DNA of 23,769 nucleotides, from IMG/VR virus record IMGVR_UViG_3300025102_000294, positions 1-23,769 of that record. The stretch is one strand, 5' to 3'. The position numbers were made by a program, and so were the translations under genes. A model generated the notes under the pieces. The model made no database searches. It saw nothing but the letters and a program-made list of their open reading frames with translations, and had not been told where the DNA came from. This stretch comes from a virus. Positions 14,587 to 17,969 of the stretch are shown in pieces (position 1 is the first letter of the stretch; the number at the start of each line of letters is the position of its first letter).

Positions 14587-15258
14587 ATGGAAAGAGAATT
14601 TCGAGGGGTATGGATTCCCGCCGAGGTGTGGTTGGACAAGAGGCTCACCCTTGTCGAGCGTGCTTTGTTGGCCGAGATTGATTCGTTCAGCGGAGCCGGG
14701 AAGACATTCCACAAGTGCAACGACACCATTCAGACCGAGTACGGCATAAGCCGCAACACCATTTCGAGGGCTTTGCGTAAACTTGAGGCGCTCCGATTCA
14801 TCCAGGTGAACTTCAACGGGAGGGTCCGTCATTGCTCAACTCGTGCAGGCAGCATCCCCAAAATGGGGAGGCAGAGTCCCCAAAATGGGGAGGCAGCATC
14901 CCCAAATGATACCCCTACTAACAAAGTAGAAAGAACAAAGAACAACACAATGAAAAAGAGAGGGGCACGCCCGCACGGTTTGGAGGAGGTGGTTGAAGCC
15001 TTCAAAGCCGTGCAAGCCTCCGAAGACGACGCGATGGCCTTTTGGGATTATTACGAGGCCAACGGGTGGACGCAAGGCAGGGGCAAACCCATCAAAGATT
15101 GGAAAGCCGCCGCGCGTGGCTGGATTCGTAGAACTGGACAATGGAAAACAAATGAACGAACTCGCAAAGGCACAACAACAAATGGTCCAACGGACGGCTC
15201 ACTCATTGAGCAACATCTCCGCCGCCTCTCGGATGGACCCGGTGGAGGCATGGAGTAA
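14587..15258 (+). CDS. Replication initiator with winged-helix domain
   Basis: ATG 14587 gives 223 residues; upstream in-frame codons belong to the preceding gene. The N-terminal domain (about residues 8-80) is a winged helix of the phage replication-initiator type: GVWIPAEVWLDKRLTLVERA, then EYGISRNTISRALRKLEALR and the wing FIQVNFNGRVRH. Residues 84-130 are a low-complexity linker that contains the iteron-like DNA repeats. The C-terminal domain has MAFWDYYEANGWTQGRGKPI and DWKAAARGWIRR, typical of phage replisome organisers. These proteins bind the origin and recruit helicase. The two-domain layout with iterons in the linker resembles lambda O. It overlaps the next gene by 107 bp. Confidence 0.8.
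   Translation: MEREFRGVWIPAEVWLDKRLTLVERALLAEIDSFSGAGKTFHKCNDTIQTEYGISRNTISRALRKLEALRFIQVNFNGRVRHCSTRAGSIPKMGRQSPQNGEAASPNDTPTNKVERTKNNTMKKRGARPHGLEEVVEAFKAVQASEDDAMAFWDYYEANGWTQGRGKPIKDWKAAARGWIRRTGQWKTNERTRKGTTTNGPTDGSLIEQHLRRLSDGPGGGME
14848..14913 (+). repeat. Iteron-like 22-bp repeats inside the initiator gene (putative origin)
   Basis: Unit 1 (14848-14869) and unit 2 (14870-14891) match at 20 of 22 positions and share the core TCCCCA-AAA-TGGGGA, a perfect 6-bp inverted repeat around AAA. Unit 3 (14892-14913) repeats GGCAGCATCCCCAAA exactly and then diverges. The 22-bp period is about two helix turns, so the sites lie on one face of the DNA, as in iteron arrays. Because 22 is not a multiple of three, the same bases are read in different frames in each unit (SIPKMG versus SPQNGE versus SPND); conservation is therefore at DNA level. 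Confidence 0.75.
14903..14962 (+). other. AT-rich stretch, possible DNA unwinding element
   Basis: Only 20 of these 60 bases are G or C, in a GC-rich window. It begins at the end of the last iteron-like unit and extends downstream. This iteron-plus-AT-rich arrangement is the layout of lambda-type origins. It also encodes the Asn/Lys/Thr-rich linker of the initiator, so amino-acid composition contributes to the AT content. Confidence 0.5.
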
Positions 15259-15796
15259 GGGCGTCAACGTACAAGCCGCATACAACAACCCACAAACCCA
15301 AGCGGCCGTCGAAGCCGCATTGATTGCGATGGTTGCCAAGACGCTCCGGTATCTTGACTACTCCCGCACCATAACAGCAGACCAAGACATCATTGACGCG
15401 GTCGAACACCTGCGGCTTGAGTTTCCGGCCATGAAGCTGGAGGAGTGGGCCATCATATTCCACCGGCTGAAGACGGGCCAATATCGTCCCGGTTACGAGC
15501 GTTTGAAACTTCCTGAACTTGTGTCTATATTTCAGCAGTACGAAGGCGAACGAGCCGAGCGTCGTGAGGCGAACTGGGGAGAGCTAAAAAAGGCAACCCC
15601 CGACAACCTCGACGACGAACAGGTCAAAGCGCTTTACGAGACATACGCACAACAACGCCGTGAAGCGAAGCAAGCCGCTCAAAAGGAAGCCGAAGTCAAG
15701 CACGTCCAAACAGACGAGCGAGGGAGGTGGGACTTCATCCCGTACCCGAACACGCAAGACCACGAACCCGAGGGGGGCGATGGTCAAAAAGGTTGA
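15152..15796 (+). CDS. Replication-associated helper protein (possible helicase-loader analogue)
   Basis: ATG 15152 gives 214 residues and overlaps the initiator gene by 107 bp. In-frame ATGs at 15182 and 15233 would overlap less and remain possible. The core reads DYSRTITADQDIIDAVEHLR, then FPAMKLEEWAIIFHRLKTGQ and YRPGYERLKLPELVSIFQQY, a pattern I associate with a family following the initiator in Bacteroidota phages. A charged helix (about residues 150-195) and a polar tail follow. By analogy with the lambda O-P pair it might load helicase, but no ATPase motif is visible and this is inference. Confidence 0.6.
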   Translation: MNELAKAQQQMVQRTAHSLSNISAASRMDPVEAWSKGVNVQAAYNNPQTQAAVEAALIAMVAKTLRYLDYSRTITADQDIIDAVEHLRLEFPAMKLEEWAIIFHRLKTGQYRPGYERLKLPELVSIFQQYEGERAERREANWGELKKATPDNLDDEQVKALYETYAQQRREAKQAAQKEAEVKHVQTDERGRWDFIPYPNTQDHEPEGGDGQKG

Positions 15797-16163
15797 CGCG
15801 GTCTTCTCTCAATACGTGCGACTCCGCGCCACCGACGACACCGGTCACGGCGAGTGCTATACCTGCGGCTCCCGTCGGCATTGGTCCGAGGTAGACGCGG
15901 GCCACTTTATGAGCCGGGCCTGTATGTCGACCCGATGGCATGAGGACAATGTCATGTTCCAATGTAAACGGTGCAACGGGTTCCGGTCGGGTGAGCAGTT
16001 CCTGTTCGCTCGCAACTTGGACGCCCAGTTTGGAGAGGGTAAGGCCGAGGAGCTTTTCATCAAGTCCAAGCAAACGCGCAAATGGACCCGCGCCGAGCTT
16101 GAGCAAATGTACCACCACTACAAACGCCTTGTGGATGAACTCCGCTCGTCGAAAGGGATTTGA
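15780..16163 (+). CDS. ninG: NinG/Rap-like recombination protein
   Basis: ATG 15780 gives 127 residues; a 17-bp overlap with the upstream gene remains. The NinG pattern is clear: C26-x2-C29 (CYTCG), WSEVDAGHFMSRA (35-47, with the DAGHF signature), TRWHEDNVMFQCKRCN (51-66, including the second CxxC, C62-x2-C65) and FRSGEQFLF. Lambda NinG/Rap is a recombination endonuclease cutting branched DNA (Holliday or D-loop structures). This copy is shorter than lambda's (about 200 residues), as often in other phages. It fits phage DNA recombination or resolution during replication. The C-terminal helical part (WTRAELEQMYHHYKRLVDEL) is family-like. Confidence 0.9.
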   Translation: MVKKVDAVFSQYVRLRATDDTGHGECYTCGSRRHWSEVDAGHFMSRACMSTRWHEDNVMFQCKRCNGFRSGEQFLFARNLDAQFGEGKAEELFIKSKQTRKWTRAELEQMYHHYKRLVDELRSSKGI

Positions 16164-16626: not shown

Positions 16627-16999
16627 ACTCAACACCTGCCGGGAGTGTGAACACTTCGTCGAGACCACCAAAAGTTGCGGGCCTCTCGTCACCGAGGCGT
16701 TCACCGACTCAAAGCTCTGTGGGTGCCATATGCCAACCAAGACACGCCTCAAGTGGGCCGAGTGTCCCCTTGGCAAATGGGAGGCCGTCATAACATCCGA
16801 ACAACTCGCCGAGGTGCAAGCGTTCATCGACATCGTTGCCAGCGACCCTAAAAGCCTGACCGACCAAGACCTCGCCGACCTGTACAACCGTATCTTGGGC
16901 ACCAATGAACAAGCCACCTCTTGCGGGGGGTGTAACCGCAAGATGCTCAAGACCCTGAAAAAACTCATCAATGAAAGCCAACGAAACAATCCCAAGTGA
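16592..16999 (+). CDS. Cysteine-rich zinc-binding protein
   Basis: The 135-residue product overlaps the sigma gene by 35 bp. Residues 14-60 hold six cysteines: C16-x2-C19 (NTCRECE), C29, C43-x-C45 (LCGCHMPTK) and C58 (CPLGKW), a layout I associate with a family in Bacteroidota phages. A second pair, C111-x2-C114 (SCGGCNRK), lies near the C-terminus after a helical linker. Zinc or iron-sulfur binding is likely. The position beside the sigma factor could hint at transcription control. No catalytic residues are identifiable. Confidence 0.65.
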   Translation: MFIVSAQTRANRLNTCRECEHFVETTKSCGPLVTEAFTDSKLCGCHMPTKTRLKWAECPLGKWEAVITSEQLAEVQAFIDIVASDPKSLTDQDLADLYNRILGTNEQATSCGGCNRKMLKTLKKLINESQRNNPK

Positions 17000-17327
17000 A
17001 TCCTTCTACCTCGCCGTGGGCACGCTTGCCCATCAGGGCGGGTACAGAATGACAGAGGACGAAGCCCTACAACGTGCCCAACGTGGCGTCACTCGCCTCG
17101 GACATACGTGGGAAGAGATAGTGAGCCCCGTGCGCCTTCGGCCATTGGTAGACACTCGCAAAATGGTGTCGTTTTTTCTGCGCGACCAAGGGTGGACCTA
17201 CAAGGCCATCGGTCAAGTCATGAACCGCGACCACGCCACAGCCGTCCACCATGTGCGGTCCCTGTTTTGGTTGATTGAAACCGAAGAACACATGAGCCGC
17301 AAATACAACGAATTCCTCTCCGCATGA
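16971..17327 (+). CDS. Stand-alone DnaA domain IV (DNA-binding domain)
   Basis: The 118-residue product matches the C-terminal DNA-binding domain of DnaA: LRPLVDTRKMVSFFLRDQG (56-74), TYKAIGQVMNRDHATAVHHV (76-95). The RDHATAVHH segment corresponds to the DnaA signature (RDHTTVxH), which contacts the DnaA box. The N-terminal 50 residues are unlike DnaA and there are no AAA+ motifs, so it cannot act as an initiator ATPase. It could compete for host DnaA boxes, mark phage sequences, or act as a repressor. It overlaps the upstream gene by 29 bp and its TGA overlaps the next ATG. Confidence 0.8.
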   Translation: MKANETIPSESFYLAVGTLAHQGGYRMTEDEALQRAQRGVTRLGHTWEEIVSPVRLRPLVDTRKMVSFFLRDQGWTYKAIGQVMNRDHATAVHHVRSLFWLIETEEHMSRKYNEFLSA

Positions 17328-17575
17328 CCAAGCCCCTCACCTTCCGCAAAGCCAAGCGCCTCCTCGGTCAATGTGACGACTGGGTACTCTTTACAGCCAA
17401 AAACAACGGCGACGAAACGTGCAACCTTGAGTGCGCAACCATGACCTCTACCTCGTGGGCTCTCTTGATTGACTTTGCAACCGCCGACGAAAACTTCTAC
17501 AATGCCCTTGAGACCATCCTCAACACGGCCCGTGACATTCGCGAAAACGGCGAATCTACGGACCAACCCGAATAA
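17324..17575 (+). CDS. 83-residue protein of unknown function
   Basis: ATG 17324 overlaps the DnaA-like TGA. The product starts MTKPLTFRKAKRLLGQCDDW, has a central acidic and Thr-rich part (NGDETCNLECATMTSTSW), and ends in a helix (FYNALETILNTARDIREN). Two cysteines six residues apart (CNLECA region) are noted but do not form a known motif. No family is recognised. The next gene's start lies inside this one. Confidence 0.55.
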   Translation: MTKPLTFRKAKRLLGQCDDWVLFTAKNNGDETCNLECATMTSTSWALLIDFATADENFYNALETILNTARDIRENGESTDQPE

Positions 17576-17969
17576 CCCTCGGGCCATACGCAAGGACCAA
17601 CTCAACAAGCTCGTGAAGAGTTTGCAAGAGTTTCCCGAGATGCTTGAAGCACGGCCCATTGTCATCGACAAAGAGGGAACCGTCCTTGGGGGCAATATGC
17701 GCCTCAAAGCGGCCCAGCTTGCCGGACTCAATGAGGTGCCGGTTTTTGTGCGAGAGTGGAGCGAGGAGAAGGACCCCGAGTTTATCATCAAGGACAACGT
17801 ACCCTCCGGCGAATGGGATTGGGAGATGGTGGGCAACAACGAAGACCCCGAACAGTTGCAAGAGTGGGGCATGACCATCCCTTGGGACAACACCGAGGGA
17901 GAGGACCAACAAGAGGACACACCAAACACACCGAAACAATGCAAGCATTGCGACAAGATTCTTCCGTGA
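17532..17969 (+). CDS. ParB-like (ParB/Srx fold) protein
   Basis: I take GTG 17532 as the start (145 residues), because the family usually begins a few residues before LRTNPNNPR; an ATG at 17502 in the same frame is the alternative. The ParB/Srx-fold part spans residues 9-70: NPRAIRKDQLNKLVKSLQEF, then RPIVIDKEGTVLGGNMRLKA and LNEVPVF. The GGNMRLKAA element corresponds to the GERR-type nucleotide-binding motif, here with Asn in place of Glu. The C-terminal tail is acidic (EDQQEDTPNTPKQ) and ends CKHCDKILP. The position next to the small terminase suggests a role in DNA modification, packaging or partition; this cannot be decided here. It overlaps the upstream gene by 44 bp. Confidence 0.75.
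   Translation: MTFAKTANLRTNPNNPRAIRKDQLNKLVKSLQEFPEMLEARPIVIDKEGTVLGGNMRLKAAQLAGLNEVPVFVREWSEEKDPEFIIKDNVPSGEWDWEMVGNNEDPEQLQEWGMTIPWDNTEGEDQQEDTPNTPKQCKHCDKILP

Follow-up and report, generated by a model that had tools for sequence, protein, structure and literature searches.

The window, by which we mean the whole 23,769-nucleotide stretch analyzed, is a linear virus record, possibly a fragment, that carries a replication initiator gene with an array of direct repeats and an A-rich tract inside it (Table 1). The initiator protein matched PHROG replication-initiation families 270, 428, 678 (O-like), and 186, and these matches together with the one to PF13730 are the two hallmarks of HTH_36-type phage replication initiators. 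In an AlphaFold2 model with 38 relatives as input, a winged helix extended to residue ~86 (pLDDT about 72–88 at residues 11–90), with predicted helices at residues 22–34, 45–52, and 56–68 and a wing at residues 72–76/81–85. Linker residues 91–113, encoded by the array, were predicted to be disordered (pLDDT <50), and the C-terminal part was helical in a model whose overall mean pLDDT was only 66. The nearest solved folds found by VIA-align were the N-terminal domains of plasmid initiators 4pql (Z 9.5), 4pt7 (Z 9.2), and 5kbj (Z 8.2; a Rep–DNA complex), which we take to be staphylococcal RepA_N proteins. Z scores of 8.2–9.5 for a predicted fold are middling and no proof of kinship with plasmid initiators, and a Pfam search found no RepA_N (PF06970) match in the initiator protein.

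Table 1. Features of the initiator locus and its surroundings, in window coordinates.
Feature	Position	Strand	Remarks
Replication initiator gene	14587..15258	+	223 aa; HTH_36 E=2.8e-7, above Pfam cut-off; PHROG matches
Winged-helix DNA-binding domain, residues 1–86	14587..14844	+	AlphaFold2 and VIA-align
Predicted recognition helix	14752..14790	+	N57 (14755–14757) and R61 (14767–14769) covary with iteron sequence
Iteron unit 1	14848..14869	+	GGCAG CA TCCCCAAAATGGGGA
Iteron unit 2	14870..14891	+	GGCAG AG TCCCCAAAATGGGGA
Iteron unit 3	14892..14913	+	Left half-site only (TCCCCAAAT); adjoins AT-rich tract
Putative DNA unwinding element	14903..14962	+	A-rich on + strand; overlaps end of iteron unit 3
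C-terminal part of initiator	14926..15255	+	Two alternative domain families among relatives (A in the window; B the other)
Overlapping downstream gene	15152..15796	+	Next to initiator in nearly all family loci (tblastn)
NinG/Rap-like endonuclease gene	15780..16163	+	NinG E=6.5e-16

The downstream gene overlaps the initiator gene by about 100 nt (15152–15258) in another frame. Relatives often align to its protein only from residue 9–11, and the true start may therefore be later. Its position suggests a helicase-loader role; Foldseek found no PDB fold match for the product at E≤0.001, and with no recognizable loader fold at that threshold we rejected its identification as a known loader. Farther along the same strand, a small protein encoded at 16971–17327 resembles DnaA domain IV (Bac_DnaA_C, E=8e-7, just under the cut-off), and a protein with a ParB N-terminal domain is encoded at 17568–17969, between the replication genes and the terminase. 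A DnaA-box reader encoded by the phage close to the origin might either rival or assist the host initiator; the window contained 5 one-mismatch matches to DnaA boxes, compared with 2.6 expected, and none was near the array. The first-pass annotation had called this a Bacteroidota phage. This assignment is tentative: only the terminase, ~40% identical to those of Phocaeicola/Bacteroides phages, points to Bacteroidota.

Three direct repeats occupy 14847–14868, 14869–14890, and 14891–14912, with spacings of 22 and 22 (unit borders in Table 1 are anchored on GGCAG). Unit 2 was 91% identical to unit 1 (20/22), and unit 3 repeated the first 16 bases, a half-site form of the last unit that is kept in most relatives. 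The exact palindrome TCCCCA-AAA-TGGGGA was found only at 14855–14869 and 14877–14891 in the 23.8-kb window; allowing three mismatches added just those two sites on the other strand, and the match count was reached in none of 100 dinucleotide shuffles. The units are read in three different frames (SIPKMG, SPQNGE, and SPND), and self-identity at a lag of 22 nt was 0.57, compared with 0.37 in synonymous-codon shuffles of the same peptide (z 4.5; 0/500). By nearest-neighbor energies, no stretches of 40, 50, or 60 bp in the whole window are less stable than those adjoining the array on its 3′ side (14916–14955, 14909–14958, and 14903–14962, respectively). Thus, the 22-bp repeats described at this place in the first-pass annotation, with each copy in another frame, were borne out, and the AT-rich stretch reported after them was confirmed and had been understated.

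The earlier proposal that the repeats are under selection as DNA was upheld among relatives. First, searches of viral contigs returned >80 distinct relative loci, and in all 74 initiator genes long enough for a comparison of lags 15–30 (window plus relatives), the best self-match lag was exactly 22 nt at the same place, with a mean identity of 0.60 versus 0.20–0.37 at other lags. No conserved and intact initiator in this set lacked the repeats or carried them elsewhere, and the refuting pattern named in the first-pass annotation was thus not seen. Second, the lag-22 identity of each of these 74 genes was reached by at most 4 of 500 synonymous-codon shuffles. Third, at identical residues, the share of identical codons in diverged class-N pairs (iteron classes are described below) was 97% for the array, 87% for the A-rich tract, and 49% for the DNA-binding domain, and the corresponding values for class P were 90%, 93%, and 42%. 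Codon identity in the array and A-rich tract far exceeds that in the DNA-binding domain, and we therefore conclude that both stretches are under selection as DNA.

In 194 kb of class-N family loci, 46 class-N sites (≤2 mismatches) lay inside the gene and 0 outside it. Two scans across 2.9 million viral contigs, run with the two main unit types, returned 44 stretches. All 23 class-N stretches were on contigs already found by protein searches, and seven of the eight class-P loci outside the first searches were in the initiator gene, the other being cut by the contig end. Neither of these two scans of the whole viral contig collection revealed satellites that borrow the array without the initiator. 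The number of units differs in a few loci. One 22-bp unit is missing in L010 (about 505–825) and two units (44 bp) are missing in L086 (from 920), with the initiator frame broken in both; assembly collapse is as likely an explanation as real deletion in defective phages. The frame is kept in the longer arrays of L055 (+66 nt, 3 units) and L043 (+45 nt, two extra units, one of 23 nt), which is consistent with an out-of-frame period that limits unit number.

Position and period of the iterons are fixed among relatives and their sequence varies, with a central A-tract and the GGCAG spacer common to most classes. This variation tracked the predicted recognition helix. Helices with Asn at residue 57 pair with TCCCCAAAATGGGGA, those with Pro with CCGTAAAAATTTTACGG or GGGGAAAGATTCTTTC, those with Arg with TCGCCAAAATGGCGA, and those with Ser with TGGTCAAAATGACCA, and residue 57 agreed with the iteron class assigned from DNA only in 60 of 61 non-redundant genes. 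The sole exception, L078, is among the few P57 proteins with Arg rather than Lys at residue 61. At that residue, AAATG(A/G) was present in the arrays of 35/35 Arg genes and 0/26 Lys genes, a rule that predicts 61/61 genes and was found and counted on the same genes; these 61 genes represent far fewer independent tests because clades share class and helix by descent. The P57/R61 proteins L088, L092, L096, and L078 have mixed arrays, in which one unit is P-type and the others contain TGATCG or TGAGCA half-sites. These mixed arrays resemble intermediate steps of a specificity change that proceeds by single half-sites.

Recombination among relatives is an independent test of the apparent pairing of helix and iteron. 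C-terminal families A and B, which automatic clustering merged and which we split by motif instead, have been swapped independently of the DNA-binding domain and array: family A is combined with classes N (9), P (16), and R (1), and family B with classes N (12), P (9), R (4), and S (3). Between L045 and L052, for example, the C-terminal DNA is 98% identical and the A-rich tract 91%, the DNA-binding domain and array are 75% and 77% identical, and helix and iteron class are both switched. The C-terminal trees contain 9 and 7 class changes, with well-supported branches forcing at least 4 and at least 2. Judged by these alignments and trees, several recombinants have independently exchanged the DNA-binding domain and array together while keeping near-identical C-terminal domains. 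The two elements move as one cassette, as expected if one binds the other. In our view, these sequence comparisons argue strongly that the initiator itself binds the repeats. More tentatively, and with rather less than even confidence, we propose a compact recognition code for this widespread initiator family, in which the inner base pairs (AAATG or another sequence) would be set by residue 61 (Arg/Lys) and the outer pairs by residue 57 (Asn/Pro/Arg/Ser). Under such a code, a single gene might reveal the replication specificity and compatibility of uncultured phages. As part of the same proposal, the 22-bp period, being out of frame, would lock unit number, since adding or losing one or two 22-bp units breaks the initiator.

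The array is very probably a phage replication origin inside the initiator gene, at which bound initiator dimers would melt the adjoining tract and a loader or helicase would be recruited; we infer dimer binding, melting, recruitment, and origin activity. In the mechanism that we envisage, dimers of the N-terminal winged helix would bind the palindromic arms of each 22-bp unit, and units two helical turns apart would place these dimers on one face of the DNA around the central A-tract. The bound dimers would form an O-some-like complex that melts the A-rich element on the 3′ side, and the C-terminal domain would then recruit a helicase loader or helicase, possibly through the product of the overlapping downstream gene. 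Iteron DNA would double as the code for a flexible linker whose own sequence matters little. Cumulative GC skew, which had been suggested as a check on the origin, showed no clear switch at the array in this linear and possibly fragmentary record.

Alternatively, the initiator could bind the array as an operator, repressing its own operon or the overlapping downstream gene, with replication starting elsewhere. Replication initiators often autoregulate, and the covariation, which speaks for self-binding, fits an operator as well as an origin. We nevertheless regard this arrangement as improbable, as the array lies 260 nt inside the gene rather than at a promoter, coincides with the window's least stable DNA and with an A-rich tract conserved at synonymous sites, and has a layout that is an origin in lambda and pSK41. 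Still less probable is a role for the palindromes at the RNA level, as hairpins governing how the overlapping downstream message is translated or how stable it is: the two arms are complementary in a transcript, and the downstream gene does overlap, but most relatives have only a half-site as the last unit, each class has a fixed sequence instead of compensatory variation, and arm sequence tracks the recognition helix, which a hairpin would not need. The idea that selection for a repeated peptide gave rise to the repeats, which are coding, is contradicted by the shuffle and codon-identity results, including lag-22 identity above synonymous shuffles in 74/74 genes, as well as by a 22-nt period that is not a multiple of 3 and puts every copy in another frame and by the predicted disorder of the encoded region, and we give it almost no credence.

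To our knowledge, the origins of uncultured phages are rarely known. If the array is an origin bound by its own initiator, then origin, initiator, and specificity residues would lie together in one 670-base gene, and initiator gene plus array would constitute portable candidate replicons. The site sequence changes in step with two initiator residues in dozens of related phages, and the pairing is therefore readable from sequence alone. The many natural domain swaps make a protein–DNA recognition code testable, and it should be possible to predict, for any two phages, whether one can share or block the replication of the other.

An in-gene iteron origin is a layout already known from lambda O and from the Rep proteins of pSK41 and pPR9; for the present initiator family, a literature search that reached few subscription papers found no paper on in-gene iterons. 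The lambda O protein binds to iterons within its own gene, and the neighboring AT-rich tract melts (PMC7466680). The annotated lambda iterons (ATCCCTCAAAACGAGGGA and similar; spacing 20, 24, and 23 bp) lie 5′ of the AT-rich tract in gene O, and the window likewise has iterons in mid-gene, at a spacing within lambda's 20–24 bp, with an A-rich tract 3′ of them. The next gene is a replication partner in lambda, both proteins match PHROG 678, and the lambdoid iterons ATCCCTCAAAACGAGGGA and TTCCCCTAAAATGAGGGA (the latter from Stx phage) resemble the window's ATCCCCAAAATGGGGA, as seen when the unit ATCCCC-AAAATG-GGGA is set against TTCCCCTAAAATGAGGGA, a resemblance that may reflect either common descent or convergence. 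By contrast, the window has a strict 22-bp spacing, arms one base shorter, two full units and a half rather than four, and a family with several alternative iteron classes. The initiator protein had no match to PF04492 (Phage_rep_O) at E≤0.1, whereas lambda O itself scored 5.7e-36, and direct hhalign of the initiator family with lambda O found no alignment. Thus, the first-pass description of a lambda-O-style origin stands for the layout and not for the Pfam family. For the A-rich tract of the window, 41 of 200 mononucleotide shuffles were as similar to that of lambda, and we claim no likeness; in some relatives the likeness is suggestive (2/200).

The Rep protein of pSK41 (RepA_N) binds boxes within its own gene, and the part encoded by the origin is a dispensable linker (PMC5703833). 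It shares with the window protein a winged-helix N-terminal domain, an origin-encoded central linker, and a separate C-terminal domain, which in pSK41 serves host contact (PMC5703833), and differs in its Pfam family, in its site sequences, and in belonging to a plasmid rather than a phage. In pPR9, an HTH_36 (PF13730) N-terminal domain of phage type and its origin have replaced the native block on a pSK41 C-terminal domain, and the replicon works (PMC5703833). Repeats also lie within this chimeric gene (L252:11955-12131), and the AATAATACTAATAG tracts that come after them closely resemble the A-rich element of the window, although the gene's HTH_36 match is below the cut-off, its repeat period is 45/15 and in frame, and it resides on a Staphylococcus plasmid. 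Finally, distant relatives in Halomonas, Pseudomonas, and Burkholderia genomes and in the Pseudomonas phage Skulduggery, in which a DnaC-like loader lies next to the replication initiation protein gene, have a different unit (CCCTTCGGAAAA or similar) and are ~31–44% identical over the first 75 residues. The best lag was 22 in 19/32 of these distant genes, in a scan that had no shuffle control and in which some matches were weak. They share with the window the same N-terminal domain (FKGVWIPAE or similar), a near-22-nt array in the same linker, and an AATACA-type tract after it.
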